From NCBI RefSeq assembly GCF_023509015.1, contig NZ_CP094975.1:2551501-2615500 (forward strand): DNA of 64,000 nt. Direction: 5' to 3'. The DNA comes from Pseudomonas abieticivorans (GTDB taxonomy: Bacteria > Pseudomonadota > Gammaproteobacteria > Pseudomonadales > Pseudomonadaceae). Shown here piece after piece: positions 16,835-61,623 of this stretch (its first letter is position 1; each line of letters opens with the position of its first letter). The notes beneath the pieces are model-generated. The model had not been told where the DNA came from and ran no database searches. It saw nothing but the letters and a program-made list of their open reading frames with translations. The position numbers were made by a program, and so were the translations under genes.

Positions 16835-16936
16835 CCTAGGCATTGCCGGTCATGGGCTTTACCGCGAGGGCAGTGGGTCGCAATCTGAATAGCACGCACT
16901 GTCGCATAAATTATGACTATGGAATGCCGCGAACCC

Positions 16937-18445
16937 ATGAAGCGCAAGAACATTCTTTTCATCATGGCCGATCAGATGGCCGCGCCCATGTTGCCGTTTT
17001 ACGCCCCCTCTGCGATCAAACTGCCCAACCTTAGCCGCCTCGCCAATGCCGGGGTGGTGTTCGATGCCGCTTATTGCAACAGCCCGCTGTGCGCACCTTC
17101 GCGCTTTACCCTGGTGAGCGGCCAACTGCCGAGCAAGATCGGCGCCTACGACAATGCCGCCGATTTCCCCGCGGATATTCCGACCTATGCCCATTACCTG
17201 CGCCGCCTGGGCTACCGCACGGCATTGTCCGGCAAGATGCACTTCTGCGGGCCCGACCAATTGCATGGCTACGAAGAACGCCTGACCAGTGACATTTACC
17301 CCGCCGACTATGGCTGGGCGGTTAACTGGGACGAACCCGACGTGCGCCCCAGTTGGTACCACAACATGTCCTCGGTACTGCAGGCCGGCCCGTGCGTGCG
17401 CACCAACCAGCTGGACTTCGACGAAGAAGTGGTGTTCAAGGCCCAGCAATACCTGTTCGATCACATTCGTGAAGCAGGCGACCAGCCGTTCTGCCTGACC
17501 GTGTCGATGACTCACCCACACGACCCGTACACCATTCCCAAGCCGTTCTGGGATATGTACCGCGATGAAGACATCCCGCTCCCACAAAACGTACCCAGCC
17601 AGGATCAACTCGATCCGCACTCCCAGCGCCTGCTCAAGGTGTACGACCTATGGGGCAAGCCGCTGCCTGTGGATAAAATTCGTGACGCCCGCCGCGCTTA
17701 CTTTGGAGCTTGCAGCTATATCGACAGCAACGTCGGCAAGCTACTGCAAACCCTGGAAGAGACCGGGTTGGCAGACGACACCATCATCGTGTTCTCCGGC
17801 GACCACGGCGACATGCTCGGCGAGCGGGGCCTCTGGTACAAAATGCACTGGTTCGAGATGTCGGCGCGGGTGCCGCTACTGGTCTACGCGCCAGGGCAAT
17901 TCAAGGCTGGCCGGGTCAGCGCAGCGGTCTCCACAGCTGATTTGCTACCCACGTTTGTCGAACTGGCAGGGGGGGTTGTGGATAACTGCCTGCCGCTGGA
18001 TGGCCGTTCACTGGTCGGCCACTTGAAAGGCGAGGGCGGCCACGATGAGGTCTTTGGCGAATACATGGCCGAGGGTACCAACAGTCCGCTGATGATGATT
18101 CGTCGTGGCGACTACAAATTCATCTACAGCGAAAGCGACCCTTGCCTACTCTTTGATGTGAAAAACGATCCACAGGAGCGCGAGGAGTTAAGCCAGGCAT
18201 TGCCTGAAGTTTTTTCACGCTTCCTGGCGCAAGCACGCGAGCGTTGGGACATTCCAGTTATCCACAGCCAGGTACTGGCCAGCCAGCGCCGTCGGCGCCT
18301 GGTGTACCAGGCATTGACCCAAGGCACGCTGAAGAGCTGGGATCACCAGCCGCTGGTCGACGCCAGTCAGCAATACATGCGCAACCATATCGACTTGGAC
18401 GATCTGGAGCGCAAGGCACGTTATCCACAACCCTGCCCATACTAA
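16937..18445 (+). CDS. betC: Choline-sulfatase
   Basis: Type I sulfatase (502 aa) that hydrolyses choline-O-sulfate to choline and sulfate. The formylglycine signature CAPSR is present, with Cys52 as the residue to be modified. The N-terminus NILFIMADQMAAPMLPFY carries the metal-binding Asp, and FSGDHGDMLGERGLWYKMHWFE carries the C-terminal metal and sulfate ligands. An upstream ATG at 16913 is in frame but adds nothing conserved. The neighbours (LysR regulator, choline-binding protein, SulP transporter) support the choline-sulfate role. Four exact DnaA boxes lie within its 3' half. Confidence 0.93.
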   Translation: MKRKNILFIMADQMAAPMLPFYAPSAIKLPNLSRLANAGVVFDAAYCNSPLCAPSRFTLVSGQLPSKIGAYDNAADFPADIPTYAHYLRRLGYRTALSGKMHFCGPDQLHGYEERLTSDIYPADYGWAVNWDEPDVRPSWYHNMSSVLQAGPCVRTNQLDFDEEVVFKAQQYLFDHIREAGDQPFCLTVSMTHPHDPYTIPKPFWDMYRDEDIPLPQNVPSQDQLDPHSQRLLKVYDLWGKPLPVDKIRDARRAYFGACSYIDSNVGKLLQTLEETGLADDTIIVFSGDHGDMLGERGLWYKMHWFEMSARVPLLVYAPGQFKAGRVSAAVSTADLLPTFVELAGGVVDNCLPLDGRSLVGHLKGEGGHDEVFGEYMAEGTNSPLMMIRRGDYKFIYSESDPCLLFDVKNDPQEREELSQALPEVFSRFLAQARERWDIPVIHSQVLASQRRRRLVYQALTQGTLKSWDHQPLVDASQQYMRNHIDLDDLERKARYPQPCPY

Positions 18446-18463
18446 TAACCTAGGGGATGTTCG

Positions 18464-19384
18464 ATGAAGTTATCCACAATGCTGGTGGCCGGGCTGATTG
18501 GCCTGGCAGGTAACGGGGCCATGGCCGATGAGCAGAGTTGTGCCACGGTAAAAATGGCTGACCCTGGCTGGAGCGATATCGCCGCCACCAATGCCATCAC
18601 GGGTGTACTGCTCGATGGCATGGGTTACAAGGCTAAGGTCGATACCCTGGCCGTGCCCATCGCCTACGGCGGCTTGAAAGATGGGCAGGTGGATGTCTTT
18701 CTCGGTAACTGGATGCCCGCCCAGCAGGGGTTCTACGACAAGTTCGTGAAAACTGGGGACGTGACCCAGTACAACAAAAACCTGGAAGGCACCGAGTTCA
18801 CTTTGGCCGTGCCGGACTATGTGTGGGACGCCGGCATCCACGACTTTGCCGACCTGCAAAAGCAGGCCGACAAGTTCGGCAAGAAGATCTACGGCATTGG
18901 CTCCGGTGCGCCAGCGAACCTGTCGCTGCAGGAGATCATCAAGAAAAACGAGTTCGGCCTGGGCGATTGGAAGCTGGTGGAATCCAGCGAGCAGGCGATG
19001 CTGTCGGAAGTATCGCGGGCCGTGAAAAAGAAGGCCTTCATCACCTTCCTCGGCTGGACGCCGCACCCGATGAACGTGCAGCTTAAAATGCACTACCTCA
19101 CTGGCGGCGAGGCTTATTTTGGCGCCAGCGGCAGCGTCTATACCCTGACGCGCAAAGGTTATGCACAGGCCTGCCCGAACGTTGGCAAGCTTTTGACCAA
19201 TCTAAGTTTTACCCAAGAGATGGAGAACGGCATCATGGCCGAAGTGGTGAACAAGAAAATCACCAATGCCGATGCCGCCAAGGCCTACATGAAAGCCAAT
19301 CCGGCCGTGCTGGAGAAATGGCTGGATGGGGTCAAGACGCTGGATGGGCAGGATGCGCTGGCAGCAGTGAAAGCAAAACTCTGA
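18464..19384 (+). CDS. choX: Choline ABC transporter substrate-binding protein
   Basis: Periplasmic substrate-binding protein (306 aa) of the OpuAC/ProX type. The signal peptide ends at GNGAMA. Blocks such as MADPGWSDIAATNAITGVLLDGMGY, LGNWMPAQ and FLGWTPHPMNVQ match ChoX-like choline binders; Trp residues in these blocks would form the aromatic cage for the quaternary ammonium. No permease or ATPase gene is adjacent, so it must work with a transporter encoded elsewhere (inferred). It follows betC by 18 bases, in the same operon. Two DnaA boxes flank its start, at 18421 and 18470. Confidence 0.88.
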   Translation: MKLSTMLVAGLIGLAGNGAMADEQSCATVKMADPGWSDIAATNAITGVLLDGMGYKAKVDTLAVPIAYGGLKDGQVDVFLGNWMPAQQGFYDKFVKTGDVTQYNKNLEGTEFTLAVPDYVWDAGIHDFADLQKQADKFGKKIYGIGSGAPANLSLQEIIKKNEFGLGDWKLVESSEQAMLSEVSRAVKKKAFITFLGWTPHPMNVQLKMHYLTGGEAYFGASGSVYTLTRKGYAQACPNVGKLLTNLSFTQEMENGIMAEVVNKKITNADAAKAYMKANPAVLEKWLDGVKTLDGQDALAAVKAKL

Positions 19385-37526: not shown

Positions 37527-37650
37527 GCGATCTGTGGATAACTTGTGTACAGAAATTTGGCTTTTTAAAAAATAACGCCGTAACCTGTTAATTTTAAAGC
37601 TTATTTCAGATCAATACCGATTCATTAAAAACGTGCATAAGTTTTTCAGA
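37527..37650. other. AT-rich region with a DnaA box
   Basis: Between plsC and the terminator lies an AT-rich stretch with an exact DnaA box (TGTGGATAA, 37533-37541), TGTACAG (37546-37552) and TTTTAAAGCTT (from 37592). The same short elements occur in oriC and in the mnmG-upstream copy, but in a different order here. No ORF is present. Confidence 0.45.
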
Positions 37651-46913: not shown

Positions 46914-48434
46914 TCAAGTAGTCAGTGTACGCAGCAGGTTCTTGTAGTCCTCGCGAATATCCGCGTCGGATTCCTTGAGTTCATTGATCTTGCGGCACGC
47001 GTGCAAGACCGTGGTGTGGTCGCGACCGCCAAACACATCGCCGATTTCCGGCAGGCTGTGGTTGGTCAGTTCCTTGGACAACGCCATGGCTACCTGACGT
47101 GGGCGCGCTACCGAGCGCGAACGACGCTTGGACAGCAGGTCGGAAATCTTGATCTTGTAGTATTCAGCCACAGTACGCTGAATGTTATCCACAGAGACCA
47201 GTTTATCCTGCAGCGCCAACAAGTCTTTCAACGATTCGCGAATCAGCTCGATGGTGATGTCGCGGCCCATGAAGTGCGAGTGAGCGATCACCCGCTTGAG
47301 CGCGCCTTCCAGTTCGCGAACGTTAGAGCGAATACGCTGGGCAATGAAGAATGCTGCGTCATGTGGCAGATCTACTTTCGCCTGGTCGGCCTTCTTCATC
47401 AGAATCGCGACACGGGTTTCCAACTCTGGTGGCTCGACGGCCACGGTCAGGCCCCAGCCAAAGCGCGACTTGAGACGCTCTTCCAGCCCTTCGATTTCTT
47501 TCGGGTAACGGTCGCTGGTAAGGATGACCTGCTGGCCACCTTCGAGCAGGGCGTTGAAGGTGTGGAAAAACTCTTCCTGCGAACGCTCTTTGCGAGCAAA
47601 GAATTGAATGTCATCGATGAGCAATGCATCTACCGATCGGTAGAAGCGCTTGAACTCGTTGATCGCGTTCAACTGCAGCGCCTTGACCATGTCGGCCACG
47701 AAACGCTCTGAGTGCAGGTAGACCACTTTGGCGTTGGGGTTTTTCTTGAGCAGGTGGTTACCCACGGCGTGCATCAAGTGAGTCTTACCCAAACCTACGC
47801 CGCCATAAAGGAACAGCGGGTTGTAGCCGTGCTTGGGGTTGTCGGCTACCTGCCAAGCAGCCGCGCGGGCCAGTTGGTTGGATTTACCTTCGACAAAATT
47901 CTCGAACGTGAACGTGCGGTTCAGGTAGCTGGTGTGCTTGAGCGCACCCTCGACCTGGACGTTGCGTTGTTCCGAGCGCACGGGCGCAGGCTGCGAGCTG
48001 GCGCCGGCCATCGAATCAAAGCTGTCGCGCGAAGGCTCTTCGCTATGCGTGGCTGCCGGGGCAGATACGGCAGCGCTGGTTGCAGCAGGGGCCTTGGCCA
48101 CTGGAGCGGCCTGGGCTTGCTGCGCCGCCTGCGAGGCTGCTGCAGAAGCGGCCAGCGGCGCGTTGGGTGCCGCACGCGGTGCTGAGCTGCGACGGCTACC
48201 TATTAATAAGGAAAGGGCAGGCGCGATTCCGCTGCCGTGCTCTCCCAATAATTCGAGCAACCGTGAGAGGTATTTTTCGTTGACCCAATCCAGCACAAAC
48301 CGGTTGGGCGCGTAGACACGCAACTCGTCGCCTTCGGCTTCGACCTGTAGCGGACGGATCCAGGTGTTGAATTGCTGGGCAGGCAGTTCATCGCGCAGAA
48401 GCTCCACGCACTGCTGCCAAAGTTCCACTGACAC
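46914..48434 (-). CDS. dnaA: Chromosomal replication initiator protein DnaA
   Basis: Initiator of chromosome replication (506 aa). Domain I ([28 protein letters not shown]) is at the N-terminus. An Ala/Pro-rich linker spans about residues 90-160. The AAA+ domain has Walker [14 protein letters not shown] and Walker B LLIDDIQF. Domain IV ends with the DnaA-box-binding signature [15 protein letters not shown]. The start is GTG at 48434 (MSVELWQQC), with AGGGGATAT upstream; a longer frame upstream is not conserved. A DnaA box at 47185 lies within its own coding sequence. Confidence 0.98.
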
Positions 48435-48860
48435 GGATATCCCCTGAATTGAAAGCCGGAGAGGCAAAAACAATCCCCATTGTACCGACGCCGGGCGGAC
48501 TTATCCACACGTAGCTTGCTCACAGGCAATGAGAAATCAGCAGCTTAACGTTAAAAGAACCGTTCGATAGGGTGTGAATAAGCTCTGTGGATAACCGCCA
48601 TTAAGGTCTATGCACAAGTAGGGGGGTTAGCCTGTGGATAACATCGCTGTGGATAACAGGCCGTTTCATGCACAGGTTATCCGAGGTCAGAGCACAGCCG
48701 CAGCACCGCTTCCTGACAAGCTACCGGTGCTCTGTACATAGCGGTTTATAAGGCCTAGAGTGGCTTATCCACAGAAAAGTGGCTGCTTAATATCTATAAG
48801 TTCTACAAAAAAGCTTTAAATAAGTCCCTTCTCTATTTTTATATTTGATCCGTGAGCCGT
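48435..48860. other. Origin of replication oriC
   Basis: Non-coding region between dnaA and rpmH. Five exact DnaA boxes are present: TTATCCACA at 48501 and 48765, and its complement TGTGGATAA at 48586, 48633 and 48648; TGTGAATAA at 48573 is a one-mismatch box. An AT-rich stretch at about 48788-48850 (including AAGCTTTAA) follows the last box and is the likely unwinding element. The dnaA-rpmH position is the standard pseudomonad origin site. The region up to the rpmH promoter has no ORF. Confidence 0.93.
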
Positions 48861-48918
48861 GCTACCCAAGCCGTCAGACCAATGGTCATGCTCATGGAAA
48901 GGAAAAGCTGGTTGGAAA

Positions 48919-48947
48919 TTGACCTGAGGCCTTGCTTTCAATAGAAT
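48919..48947 (+). promoter_or_regulatory. Promoter of rpmH operon
   Basis: TTGACC (48919-48924) and TAGAAT (48942-48947) are separated by exactly 17 bases, a good sigma-70 promoter. It is about 60 bases upstream of rpmH. Confidence 0.8.
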
Positions 48948-49007
48948 CGCCGGTCTCTTAAAACGGGGGCCATTCCGGCCCGTTGTGGACGAACCAGGTA
49001 ACACGCC

Positions 49008-49142
49008 ATGAAACGTACTTTCCAACCCAGCACCATCAAACGCGCCCGTACCCACGGCTTCCGTGCTCGCATGGCCACCAAGAACGGCCGCGCCGTACTG
49101 TCGCGTCGCCGTGCCAAAGGCCGTGCGCGTCTGGCAGTTTGA
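49008..49142 (+). CDS. rpmH: 50S ribosomal protein L34
   Basis: Ribosomal protein of 44 aa reading [20 protein letters not shown] ... ending GRARLAV. It is very basic and matches L34 throughout. It is the first gene after oriC on the right arm, preceded by a clear sigma-70 promoter, and is 16 bases upstream of rnpA. Confidence 0.97.
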
Positions 49143-57779: not shown

Positions 57780-57817
57780 CTGTAGGCCCCTTCAAGGTTT
57801 ATCCACAGTTCATCGAC

Positions 57818-57857
57818 GCCCTCGCGCTCTGTTCACACACAGACCGAGGGCTTTTTT
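57818..57857 (+). terminator. Rho-independent terminator after msrA
   Basis: GCCCTCG (57818-57824) pairs with CGAGGGC (57845-57851), with an inner TCTGT/ACAGA pairing, followed by TTTTTT. It closes the redox operon just before the origin-like region. Confidence 0.88.
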
Positions 57858-58279
57858 ATGCCTGTCATTCAGGCTTTTTTGTACACAGGGCGAAAATAAG
57901 CCCTGTGGGTAACCGCCCTTCAGCCCAGTTGATAAGACGCCCTCAAAGCAGGGGATAAATCCGCCTGTGGGTAAGTAGCACTTTCATCCACAGGCTTAGG
58001 CCGCTTATCCATAGGGCTCTTGGGCACATGACCACAACCTTTAATTTCTCTGTACAGTACGTAATATAAGGCCTGTAGCGTTCTATCCACAGAAAAGGTG
58101 CTGTATAGAAATAAACATAAAAACAAAGCTTTAATAAATTCTTCTCTCTTTATTTCTATTGCATGCCATTCATCCACAGCTGTTTAAATTTTGTGCAAAA
58201 GGTTTCTTTGGAGGGGGGTAAGTCCCTATACTGGTCAGCTATCCCAATTACCCAACACAGAACAGGCACGAGGTGCGTG
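57858..58279. other. Second oriC-like region upstream of mnmG
   Basis: Non-coding AT-rich stretch of about 420 bases. It contains degenerate DnaA boxes (TGTGGGTAA at 57904 and 57966, TCATCCACA at 57983 and 58170, TTATCCATA at 58015, CTATCCACA at 58083); an exact box lies just upstream at 57799. CTCTGTACA, ATAAGGCCT and TATCCACAGAAAAG (58048, 58066, 58084) occur in the same order and spacing as in oriC (48730, 48748, 48766), followed by AAGCTTTAA (58126 versus 48811). A duplicated origin module is the best description. From memory, pseudomonads are known to have a second ARS-type region here. Confidence 0.8.
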
Positions 58280-60172
58280 GTGGATTTCCCTTCCCGTTTT
58301 GAAGTGATCGTCATCGGCGGCGGCCATGCCGGTACCGAGGCTGCGCTTGCGTCAGCACGCATGGGCGCAAAAACCCTGCTGCTTACACATAACGTGGAAA
58401 CCCTCGGGCAGATGAGCTGCAACCCAGCCATCGGTGGCATCGGCAAGAGCCATTTGGTCAAGGAAATCGATGCCCTGGGCGGCGCGATGGCTTTGGCTAC
58501 CGATAAGGGCGGCATCCAGTTCCGTGTATTGAACAACCGCAAGGGCCCGGCTGTACGTGCCACGCGCGCCCAAGCCGACCGCATCCTGTACAAGGCCGCG
58601 GTACGCGAGATTCTTGAAAACCAGCCCAACCTGTGGATATTCCAGCAGTCCTGCGACGACCTGATCGTCGAGCAGGACCAGGTACGCGGTGTGGTCACGC
58701 AAATGGGCCTGAAGTTTTTCGCCGACTCCGTGGTATTGACCGCAGGTACCTTCCTGGCCGGACTTATCCACATCGGCATGCAGAACTATTCGGGTGGCCG
58801 CGCCGGTGATCCACCGTCCACGGCCCTGGCCAAACGCCTGCGTGAATTCGATCTGCGCGTCGGTCGCCTGAAAACCGGAACGCCCCCGCGCATCGACGGG
58901 CGCTCCGTGGATTTCTCGGTGATGAGCGAGCAACCAGGCGACACTCCGATCCCGGTCATGTCGTTCATGGGCTCCAAGGAACTGCACCCCAAACAGGTCA
59001 GTTGCTGGATTACCCACACCAATGCCCGTACCCACGAGATCATTGCCGCGAACCTAGATCGTTCGCCCATGTACTCCGGGGTGATCGAAGGCATTGGCCC
59101 GCGCTACTGCCCATCGATCGAAGACAAGATCCATCGCTTTGCCGACAAGGAAAGCCATCAGGTCTTCATCGAGCCGGAAGGGCTGACCACTCATGAGCTA
59201 TACCCCAACGGTATTTCCACGTCGCTGCCATTTGACGTGCAGTTGCAGATCGTCCAGTCGATCCGCGGCCTGGAAAACGCCCACATCGTGCGGCCAGGCT
59301 ATGCGATCGAATACGACTATTTCGACCCTCGCGACCTGAAGTACAGCCTGGAAACGAAAGTCATCGACGGCCTGTTCTTTGCTGGCCAAATCAACGGCAC
59401 CACCGGCTACGAAGAAGCCGGCGCCCAAGGTTTGCTGGCCGGGACCAACGCCGCACTGCGTGCGCAGGGCCGCGACAGCTGGTGCCCGCGCCGAGATGAG
59501 GCGTACATCGGCGTGCTGGTCGACGACCTGATCACCCTGGGTACCCAAGAGCCTTACCGCATGTTCACTTCGCGGGCCGAGTACCGCTTGATCCTGCGCG
59601 AAGACAACGCCGACCTGCGCTTGACCGAAAAAGGCCGCGAACTGGGCCTGGTCGATGACGCGCGTTGGGCCGCGTTCTGCACCAAGCGCGAAGCCATCGA
59701 GCGTGAAGAACAGCGCCTGAAAAGCACCTGGATCCGCCCTAACACCGCGGTCGGCGATGCCGTGGCCGAGAAGTTCGGCACGCCACTGGCCCATGAATAC
59801 AACCTGTTGAACCTGCTGACCCGTCCGGAAATCGACTATGTCGGCCTGATCGAAGTGACAGGCGAAGGCGCCAGCGACCCACAGGTGGCCGAACAAGTCG
59901 AGATCAAGACCAAGTACGCCGGTTACATCGACCGCCAGCAGGACGAAATCGCCCGCCTGCGCGCCAGCGAAAACACTCGCCTGCCGGCAGACATCGACTA
60001 CGTTGGCATTTCCGGCCTGTCCAAGGAAATCCAGGGCAAACTCGGCGCCACCCGCCCGGAAACCCTCGGCCAGGCATCGCGTATCCCCGGCGTTACCCCG
60101 GCAGCGATTTCGCTGTTGATGATCCATTTGAAAAAACGCGGCGCAGGCCGTGAGTTGGAGCAAAGCGCTTGA
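58280..60172 (+). CDS. mnmG: tRNA uridine 5-carboxymethylaminomethyl modification enzyme MnmG (GidA)
   Basis: FAD-dependent partner of MnmE in U34 modification (630 aa). The FAD loop is [21 protein letters not shown]. Further blocks are [39 protein letters not shown] and the C-terminal [10 protein letters not shown] and [43 protein letters not shown]. The start is GTG at 58280 ([15 protein letters not shown]), the second of two tandem GTG codons; GTG at 58277 is possible. The stop overlaps rsmG. A DnaA box (58764) lies in the coding region. Confidence 0.97.
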
Positions 60173-60834: not shown

Positions 60835-61623
60835 ATGGCTAAGGTATTCGCGATAGCGAACCAAAAGGGTGGTGTGGGCAAGACCACCACCTGTATCAAC
60901 CTCGCAGCATCGCTGGTTGCTACCAAGCGCCGGGTGCTGTTGATCGATCTCGATCCACAGGGCAACGCCACCATGGGTAGCGGTGTGGATAAACACGCCC
61001 TGGAAAACTCGGTATACGATCTGTTGATCGGCGAGTGCGACCTGTCCCAGGCCATGCACTATTCCGAGCATGGCGGCTACCAACTGCTGCCGGCCAACCG
61101 TGACCTGACTGCCGCCGAGGTGGTCCTGCTGGAAATGCAGATGAAGGAAAGCCGCTTGCGCACTGCGCTGGCGCCGGTTCGCGAAAGCTACGACTACATT
61201 TTGATCGACTGCCCCCCGTCGCTGTCGATGCTGACCCTCAACGCCCTGGTGGCGTCCGATGGCGTGATCATCCCGATGCAGTGCGAGTACTTCGCCCTGG
61301 AAGGCTTGAGCGACCTTGTGGATAACATCAAGCGCATCGCCGAGCTGCTGAACCCGGAACTGAAGATCGAAGGCCTGCTGCGGACCATGTACGACCCGCG
61401 CCTGAGCCTGATCAACGATGTGTCCGCGCAGCTCAAGGAGCACTTCGGCGATCAGTTGTACGATACCGTGATCCCGCGCAACATCCGCCTGGCCGAAGCC
61501 CCAAGCTTCGGTATGCCGGCCCTGGCATACGACAAATCCTCCCGTGGCGCGCTGGCCTATCTGGCCTTGGCGGGCGAGATGGTTCGTCGGCAGCGTCGTC
61601 AACCACGCACTGCAAAGGCTTAA
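60835..61623 (+). CDS. parA: Chromosome partition ATPase ParA (Soj)
   Basis: Deviant-Walker ATPase (262 aa) that, with ParB and parS, positions origins. The P-loop is ANQKGGVGKTTTCINLAAS at residues 8-26, with the signature Lys at 11, and DLDPQGNATMG and DCPPSLSMLTLNALVASD follow. It starts at ATG 60835, 18 bases after the rsmG stop. Two DnaA boxes (60984 and 61317) lie inside it. It is followed by parB after 9 bases. Confidence 0.97.
   Translation: MAKVFAIANQKGGVGKTTTCINLAASLVATKRRVLLIDLDPQGNATMGSGVDKHALENSVYDLLIGECDLSQAMHYSEHGGYQLLPANRDLTAAEVVLLEMQMKESRLRTALAPVRESYDYILIDCPPSLSMLTLNALVASDGVIIPMQCEYFALEGLSDLVDNIKRIAELLNPELKIEGLLRTMYDPRLSLINDVSAQLKEHFGDQLYDTVIPRNIRLAEAPSFGMPALAYDKSSRGALAYLALAGEMVRRQRRQPRTAKA

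Follow-up and report, generated by a model that had tools for sequence, protein, structure and literature searches.

The replication origin of this pseudomonad appears to have been duplicated as a whole. Within the window, as the 64,000-nucleotide stretch analysed here is called, the dnaA-rpmH intergenic region (oriC1; 48435..49007, plus strand) carries the reference origin module, and a second copy of that module lies in the msrA-mnmG intergenic region (oriC2; 57780..58279, plus strand). On the preferred reading, to which a probability of about 0.6 is assigned, oriC1 is the origin in use, and oriC2, next to the mnmG promoter, is a latent origin that is conserved and of low affinity.

Organization of the Two Origin Regions

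Gene names in this locus derive from the translations. The minus-strand genes to the left of oriC1 are taken to be gyrB-recF-dnaN-dnaA, the interval between oriC1 and the msrA-mnmG gap presumably holds rpmH, rnpA, yidC, mnmE, a two-component pair and methionine-sulfoxide-reductase-like genes, and what we take to be mnmG, rsmG, parA, parB and atp genes follow to the right of that gap. Both gaps were delimited by open reading frames, oriC1 with a GTG at 48434 (minus strand) as the start of dnaA and an ATG at 49008 as the start of rpmH. The module, composed of a DnaA-box array and an unwinding region, extends over 48566..48845 in oriC1 and, in register with it, over 57884..58163 in oriC2 (both plus strand, boundaries approximate). 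The two copies share one orientation, and each lies upstream of an outward-reading gene, namely rpmH and mnmG (gidA; 58280..60172, plus strand), the latter transcribed away from oriC2. Gene orientations diverge at oriC1, not at oriC2.

Read towards mnmG, oriC2 begins with two weak DnaA boxes, both TTACCCACA on the minus strand (57904..57912 and 57966..57974), which stand at -180 and -118 from the edge box and in register with exact oriC1 boxes at 48586 and 48648. On the plus strand these are followed by the weak box TCATCCACA (57984..57992), whose CACAG lies at -95 as it does in oriC1, the weak box TTATCCATA (58005..58013) recovered by the one-mismatch search, the CTCTGTACA block (58048..58056), the ATAAGGCCT block (58066..58074), and the R1-like edge box CTATCCACA (58083..58091), in register with TTATCCACA at 48765 and adjoining the AT-rich unwinding region (58101..58160). 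A further one-mismatch, DnaA-box-like TCATCCACA (58170..58178, plus strand) sits between the unwinding region and the mnmG promoter, whose probable -10 element is a TATACT at 58227..58232 (plus strand); among the 75 genomes described below, 73 have TATACT within the last 100 bases 5' of mnmG.

Likeness of the Two Copies Within the Window

Four blocks had been claimed to recur in both gaps, and all four are found where they were placed: CTCTGTACA at 48730 and 58048, ATAAGGCCT at 48748 and 58066, TATCCACAGAAAAG at 48766 and 58084, and AAGCTTTAA at 48811 and 58126, in the same order and on the same strand in both copies. The fourth block is offset by 81 bases in oriC1 and by 78 in oriC2; because it is 3 bases closer in oriC2, the first net indel falls between the edge box and the AAGCTTTAA block. 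The first three blocks have no further copies in the 64 kb, and AAGCTTTAA has one, on the minus strand at 37594.

The resemblance extends well past these words. Aligned without gaps at an offset of 9318, the two regions are identical at 129 of 225 bases (48566 to 48790), against a mean of 56.3 (sd 6.5) over all offsets, a next-best value of 90 and a reverse-strand maximum of 85. The sequence-only reading had left random sequence as a possible source of the agreement; local alignment of the two gaps gives a best score of 50, and the highest of 2000 dinucleotide shuffles reached 32. With none of the 2000 shuffles matching it, and with a likeness that is register-specific across genomes, chance resemblance of AT-rich DNA is refuted. 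When the genome itself was searched with the oriC core at E ≤ 0.001, matches occurred at two places only, oriC1 and oriC2. The proposal of a duplicated origin core therefore holds as to the duplication of an origin module but not as to its size, since the unit is about 280 bp rather than a short core, and the likeness takes in the box-array stretch from about 57884 onward together with the unwinding region, more than the four blocks.

Exact DnaA boxes had been described as mostly reduced to one-mismatch versions near mnmG, and the counts bear this out: 57858-58279 has no exact TTATCCACA and six one-mismatch boxes (57904, 57966, 57984, 58005, 58083, 58170), whereas the dnaA-rpmH gap holds five exact boxes and a single one-mismatch version. 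In register, the one-mismatch boxes at 57904, 57966 and 58083 coincide with the oriC1 boxes at 48586, 48648 and 48765. The box at 48633 has a poorer partner in oriC2, shifted by one base, and that at 48573 has no in-register box partner there.

Both Copies Across the Genus

The stretch 57985-58180, used as a query, found a match in all 99 genomes of the genus, among them that of the window. A second place was hit in 25 of the 99, in 24 of these separated from the first by 4.4-9.3 kb, the spacing that oriC1 would give, and in the remaining one (G024) as a match of 24 bases on a different contig. Comparison then drew on 83 Pseudomonas-lineage rows, comprising the window, 60 of the other 98 genus genomes (G001-G060) and 22 loci (L001-L022), which include one Stutzerimonas and one assembly titled Paucimonas. 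Both gaps were cut in 75 rows (the window, 21 of the loci and 53 of the genomes); the other 8 yielded no dnaA-rpmH gap, in 7 cases with the contig ending there.

The 75 oriC1 and 75 oriC2 sequences were aligned separately and compared profile against profile, giving a score of 166.6 over about 275 columns, with 60 column-shuffles at 17.0 or below. Models of each copy recognise the other in every genome, oriC1 scoring 22.8-137.9 bits under the oriC2 model and oriC2 scoring 50.1-129.7 bits under the oriC1 model, and every one of the 75 rows scores above the 40 box-preserving shuffles made from it, in either direction; the highest control across the rows reached 41 bits. In some species one gapped alignment spans the whole module (274 columns in L119, 287 in L007), whereas many others yield a short best local alignment, the full length being visible by profiles only.

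Origins in general share functional constraints, and a DnaA nucleoprotein complex might impose one layout on two unrelated sequences. The similarity is indeed partly due to boxes, and the reverse-complemented oriC2 profile still scores 39.3 against oriC1. Against such convergence, the likeness had been said to go beyond shared DnaA boxes, and with the boxes masked the profiles do still score 99.8, compared with at most 17.2 in 60 column shuffles; moreover, shuffles that keep the boxes and scramble the spacers (40 each, both directions) reach the cross-model score in 0 of 75 genomes. Convergence is accordingly considered very improbable. Shared DnaA boxes as the only cause of the likeness were ruled out by the shuffles with and without boxes. 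The similarity of oriC2 to oriC1 is thus colinear and exceeds the boxes, and both copies occur throughout the lineage (75 of 75 genomes and 15 of 15 testable loci of other genera, with the mnmG side of L184 and L191, discussed below, as the exception). There is little doubt that oriC2 and oriC1 are homologous by duplication.

The claim of strict spacing was likewise upheld across Pseudomonas. The distance from CTGTACA to TATCCACA is 34 in all 52 oriC1 and all 60 oriC2 sequences in which the two words lie within 60 bases of each other. Offsets were measured from the TATCCACA of the edge box using exact words only, TATCCACA being found in 64 of 75 oriC1 and 72 of 75 oriC2 sequences and missing in 11 and 3. 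Among the 75 genomes, CTGTACA stands at -34 in 51 oriC1 and 57 oriC2 sequences, AAGG[CG]CT at -16 in 23 and 37, CACAG at -95 in 55 and 65, and exact TGTGGATAA at -118 in 56 and 44. TGTGGATAA at -180 is found in 62 oriC1 but only 4 oriC2 sequences, and AAGCTTT lies at +45 in 53 oriC1 versus +42 in 24 oriC2 sequences. With its six one-mismatch boxes and this genus-wide geometry, oriC2 has the DnaA-box cluster of fixed layout that marks an oriC. CTGTACA and AAGG[CG]CT, which in the window correspond to 48730/58048 and 48748/58066, hold a fixed place in both origins and are not DnaA boxes. The rpmH and mnmG promoters might themselves be homologous, as a CTGGTT block is common to them in the joint alignment, but its spacing to the -10 element differs.

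Box Affinity, Unwinding and Conservation

The weakening of the boxes suspected in the window is genus-wide. Exact TTATCCACA boxes average 3.73 in oriC1 versus 1.03 in oriC2 and are more numerous in oriC1 in 74 of 75 genomes, with equal numbers in one. Boxes with at most one mismatch average 5.76 and 5.40, and the boxes of oriC2 have therefore been weakened rather than lost. Stability was calculated from nearest-neighbour energies. The least stable 60 nt of the window start at 48786 (48786..48845, plus strand, the unwinding region of oriC1), and the second least stable at 58101 in oriC2. By this calculation oriC2 has an AT-rich, easily melted region beside its edge DnaA box. The unwinding region of oriC1 is marginally less stable than that of oriC2 in the window itself, but comparison of the least stable 60-nt stretch of each copy puts oriC2 below oriC1 in stability in 66 of 75 genomes.

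Taken in 25-column steps, pairwise identity within the oriC2 module is 59-79%, versus 33-42% just upstream, and that within the oriC1 module is 52-78%; averaged over pairs of genomes, identity amounts to 0.69 in oriC2 and 0.66 in oriC1. Thus, oriC2 is not visibly decaying. Conserved inside the module and not upstream of it, oriC2 is therefore maintained, very probably by selection.

What it is maintained for is less certain. It may be a former origin that no longer fires and is kept to control mnmG and the genes that follow it, to titrate DnaA, or for both purposes, in keeping with the scarcity of exact boxes in 74 of the 75 genomes, with the presence, in 54 of the 75, of a TCCACAG between the unwinding region and the mnmG promoter, and with a report that one of two P. 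aeruginosa elements is dispensable (PMC4403523). A promoter or a titration site, however, requires neither an unwinding region nor array geometry, and oriC2 retains both, its unwinding region being conserved and in most genomes the more easily melted. A former origin of this kind is accordingly judged unlikely, though it is the most serious of the alternatives, and a still functional latent origin is held to be slightly more likely than not.

Proposed Role of oriC2

In the preferred reading of oriC2 as a latent origin, DnaA would load at both copies from the edge box into the unwinding region. Owing to its strong boxes oriC1 would fill and fire first, and oriC2, with low-affinity boxes, would fire only if active DnaA were plentiful or oriC1 failed. 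At usual fork rates, a fork from oriC1 would copy oriC2, ~9 kb away, passively within seconds and before oriC2 could act, which would allow the two origins to coexist without extra initiation. oriC2 would then serve as a reserve origin and as a DnaA-responsive element at the mnmG promoter; its DnaA sites, lying against that promoter, probably affect mnmG transcription. For E. coli, it is held that gidA, being transcribed away from oriC, adds negative supercoils that favour opening (PMC6606810). Recombination between the direct-repeat copies would delete rpmH to mnmE, genes in part expected to be essential, which may have helped both copies to stay.

The distance between the copies is 4.3-6.5 kb in many of the 75 genomes and 7.7-9.3 kb in others, and in the window the extra genes of the interval sit between mnmE and mnmG. 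Two clusters of DnaA boxes near dnaA are also what Bacillus subtilis and Helicobacter pylori have, and oriC1 and oriC2 could in principle form one bipartite origin of that type. Bipartite origins are described as having the unwinding region in one of two subregions with a spacer gene, usually dnaA, between them (PMC4285127). Here, unlike in B. subtilis and H. pylori, both clusters, 4-9 kb apart, have an array and their own AT-rich unwinding region rather than one subregion having it; the distance between them varies from 4.3 to 9.3 kb, and autonomous replication of two separate elements has been reported (PMC4403523). A single bipartite origin is hence considered hardly tenable.

It is equally doubtful that oriC2 is the main chromosomal origin of this species. 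Its lower stability in most genomes would suit such a role, as would the presence of TCTATCCACAGAA in oriC2 of 44 of 75 genomes and in oriC1 of 2 of 75, given that TCTATCCACAGAA is the R1 motif assigned to Pseudomonas in a machine-learning study of origins in Gammaproteobacteria (PMC7174414). Set against this are the divergence of genes at oriC1, the fewer exact boxes of oriC2, and a Pseudomonas genome paper in which the GC-skew transition is tied to an oriC located between rpmH and dnaA (PMC3596284). From the concentration of TCTATCCACAGAA in oriC2 it follows that the database behind PMC7174414 seems to hold the mnmG copy for Pseudomonas, and origin databases may more generally list that copy for the genus. 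In the window the cumulative strand skew is lowest at 61543, which coincides with neither origin. Among the genes that separate the origins, those on the plus strand have a third-position skew (-0.085) closer to the leading value (-0.073) than to the lagging one (-0.146), but the single minus-strand gene, at +0.005, does not fit.

Relation to Reported Pseudomonas Origins

Yee and Smith in 1990 reportedly presented, in their title, a class distinct from E. coli-type origins, and Smith et al. in 1991 and Jiang et al. in 2006 are said to be further original papers on self-replicating elements of P. aeruginosa. The second of these elements is assumed to lie near gidA (mnmG) and would hence very probably be the oriC2 locus. 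A second autonomously replicating region in pseudomonads, mentioned in the sequence-only reading, is indeed in print: according to a 2015 account, P. aeruginosa yielded two elements capable of autonomous replication, only one of them essential in the laboratory and the other perhaps once functional (PMC4403523). The likeness to the present case lies in the pair of chromosomal elements reported there. The accounts of the P. aeruginosa elements, as relayed in the available text of PMC4403523, do not describe full-length in-register paralogy, rigid genus-wide spacing, the asymmetry of weak boxes and easy melting, or a link to mnmG-side origins of other orders. Neither the block spacing nor the full-length paralogy was recognised in the literature searched, which consisted mostly of open-access titles and abstracts, and the papers of 1990-2006 may contain them. 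Within that literature, what looks new is the paralogy over the full length, its extension to mnmG-side origins in other Gammaproteobacteria, and the interleaving of mnmG-side, dnaA-side and two-copy states.

The Module Outside the Genus

Other genera of the family contributed 20 loci out of 36 genomes outside the genus. The mnmG-side module was found in 18 of the 20, the rpmH-side module in all 15 loci with more than 100 bases upstream of rpmH, and both copies in those 15. The mnmG-side module was not detected by the models in L184 and L191, two genomes of one genus of the family (g13). These two have no rpmH within their 11.5-kb locus, and the dnaA side of G126 reaches only 12.5 bits.

Outside the family, 40 of 53 order-level genomes (36 families) were surveyed, a region qualifying when any of three models (oriC1, oriC2, joint) scored it at 18 bits or more and above all 120 box-preserving shuffles. 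As the models are derived from Pseudomonas, "not detected" outside the family does not equal "absent." The mnmG side passed in 9 of 40 genomes and the rpmH/dnaA side in 8 of 37 (G177, G138 and G180 left out), so distributed that both sides passed in 2 (G158 and G140), the mnmG side only in 7, the dnaA side only in 6, and neither was detected in 25. The mnmG side of G140, and L208, which has the dnaA side only, passed with one model only. Direct alignment of the two copies scored 28 in G158 against a null maximum of 26 (0/300), and 29 in G140 against a null maximum of 35 (3/300); the latter lies within its null, and the two-copy state of G140 therefore rests on profile matches only. After this survey, with both copies in G158 and G140, the idea that Pseudomonadaceae is the only family with both was dropped.

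In a further 58 loci (L023-L080) the mnmG side passed in 7, whose titles are all gammaproteobacterial: Porticoccus, Salinisphaera, two Pseudidiomarina, two Shewanella and Alteromonas. These seven (L050, L063, L026, L080, L067, L023 and L024) match the Pseudomonas module with at least two of the three models and above all box-preserving shuffles. Against 500 shuffles of each of two kinds, four of the regions that passed in the two surveys (L050, L026, L023 and L213) were never equalled, whichever model was used. The difference from Pseudomonas is that only the mnmG-side copy was detected in the seven, most of which cover the mnmG side alone; their mnmG-side regions would be the origins in use. 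Other gammaproteobacterial loci among L023-L080, such as Acinetobacter, Moraxella, Salinivibrio, Psychromonas and Oleiphilus, did not pass on the mnmG side, nor did the loci titled Betaproteobacteria or Burkholderiales. Homology of oriC2 to mnmG-side regions of other Gammaproteobacteria is thus indicated in 7 of the 58 loci and 9 of the 40 order-level genomes and not in the rest. Two loci titled Porticoccaceae, L023 and L027, have rpmH inverted relative to Pseudomonas and directly facing mnmG; one origin module lies between the two genes in L023, and none was detected there in L027.

The oriC of E. coli K-12 (NC_000913, 3925744-3925975) resembles oriC2 in its position and orientation relative to mnmG and in the succession of an edge box, R1, and an unwinding region towards mnmG. 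The oriC1 model aligns with it colinearly over its whole length at 24.8 bits (bias 5.4), with shuffles at 16.4 or below (0/500 of each kind) and the CTGTACA stretch as a gap. The oriC2 model gave no colinear match to K-12 oriC, the joint model scored 9.9 bits, which 4 and 2 of 500 shuffles reached and which is not above control, and the E. coli dnaA-rpmH gap had no match to the models. Sequence homology of the Pseudomonas module to E. coli oriC is on these scores suggestive only.

We know of no settled explanation of why replication starts beside dnaA in some lineages and beside mnmG in related ones. Across the genomes surveyed, mnmG-side, dnaA-side and two-copy states are interleaved. It is tentatively proposed, at somewhat below even odds, that gammaproteobacterial origins relocate, the whole ~280-bp module being duplicated between two fixed docking sites, upstream of rpmH beside dnaA and upstream of mnmG, and one copy then being lost. 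The "Pseudomonas class" and the "E. coli class" would then be one homologous family, of which Pseudomonadaceae keep the two-copy intermediate, with the second copy selected as a low-affinity reserve. With both homologous origins kept 4-9 kb apart as a direct repeat around genes such as rpmH, rnpA and yidC, these bacteria would constitute a natural two-origin system, in which relocation, the competition of origins that differ in box affinity, and the passive inactivation of one origin by its neighbour are directly testable.

Age of the Duplication and Exchange Between Copies

The duplication had been called ancient, and the finding of both copies in each of the 15 testable loci from the family's other genera favours this, although the tree cannot date it. 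A tree of 99 module sequences sets most oriC1 apart from most oriC2 sequences within Pseudomonas and has few firm branches; approximately unbiased tests allow oriC1 as one clade (p = 0.235), oriC2 as one clade (0.324) and both together versus outgroups (0.496). In two loci of small-genome genera (L178 and L192) both copies fall together with one near relative.

Likeness is slightly greater between the two copies within a genome than between copies taken from different genomes, with identities of 0.537 versus 0.528 over the 75 genomes and 0.532 versus 0.512 over 25 cluster representatives (0/3000 permutations), a difference of about five bases. With one copy shifted by -12 to +12, the excess appears at the true register only (next z 2.5), and a local-alignment version over all 75 gives 39.8 versus 37.0 (permutation sd 0.9; highest of 5000 permutations, 40.2). 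In a column test, 7 of 226 variable columns have p ≤ 0.02 and 43 have p ≥ 0.98, and no exchanged tract between oriC1 and oriC2 was identified in the identity and column comparisons. Recent copying between the origins was rejected, as copies from closely related genomes are equally alike (0.547, 0.540 and 0.544 in the three nearest distance bins). An excess so slight, and equalled by close relatives, therefore points at most to slow, weak concerted evolution or co-adaptation. In L019 (Pseudomonas flexibilis) a spaced inverted repeat, AAGCCCT...AGGGCTT, precedes the edge box in both copies and is a possible trace of exchange between them.

DnaA Boxes Elsewhere in the Window and Genome

Exact TTATCCACA occurs 32 times in the window (1-64000), against 0.21 expected from shuffling, and 114 times in the whole 6.7-Mb genome (G000), where the same word read backwards, as a control, occurs 16 times. 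More than one quarter of the genome's exact DnaA boxes are concentrated in the 1% of its length that surrounds the two origins, and 26 of the 32 in the window lie outside the two origin gaps. Five of them are gathered within 0.8 kb at 17668-18478, 30 kb from oriC1, inside a sulfatase-like open reading frame (16913-18445) and at the start of the next, and this group is a candidate DnaA-titrating cluster.
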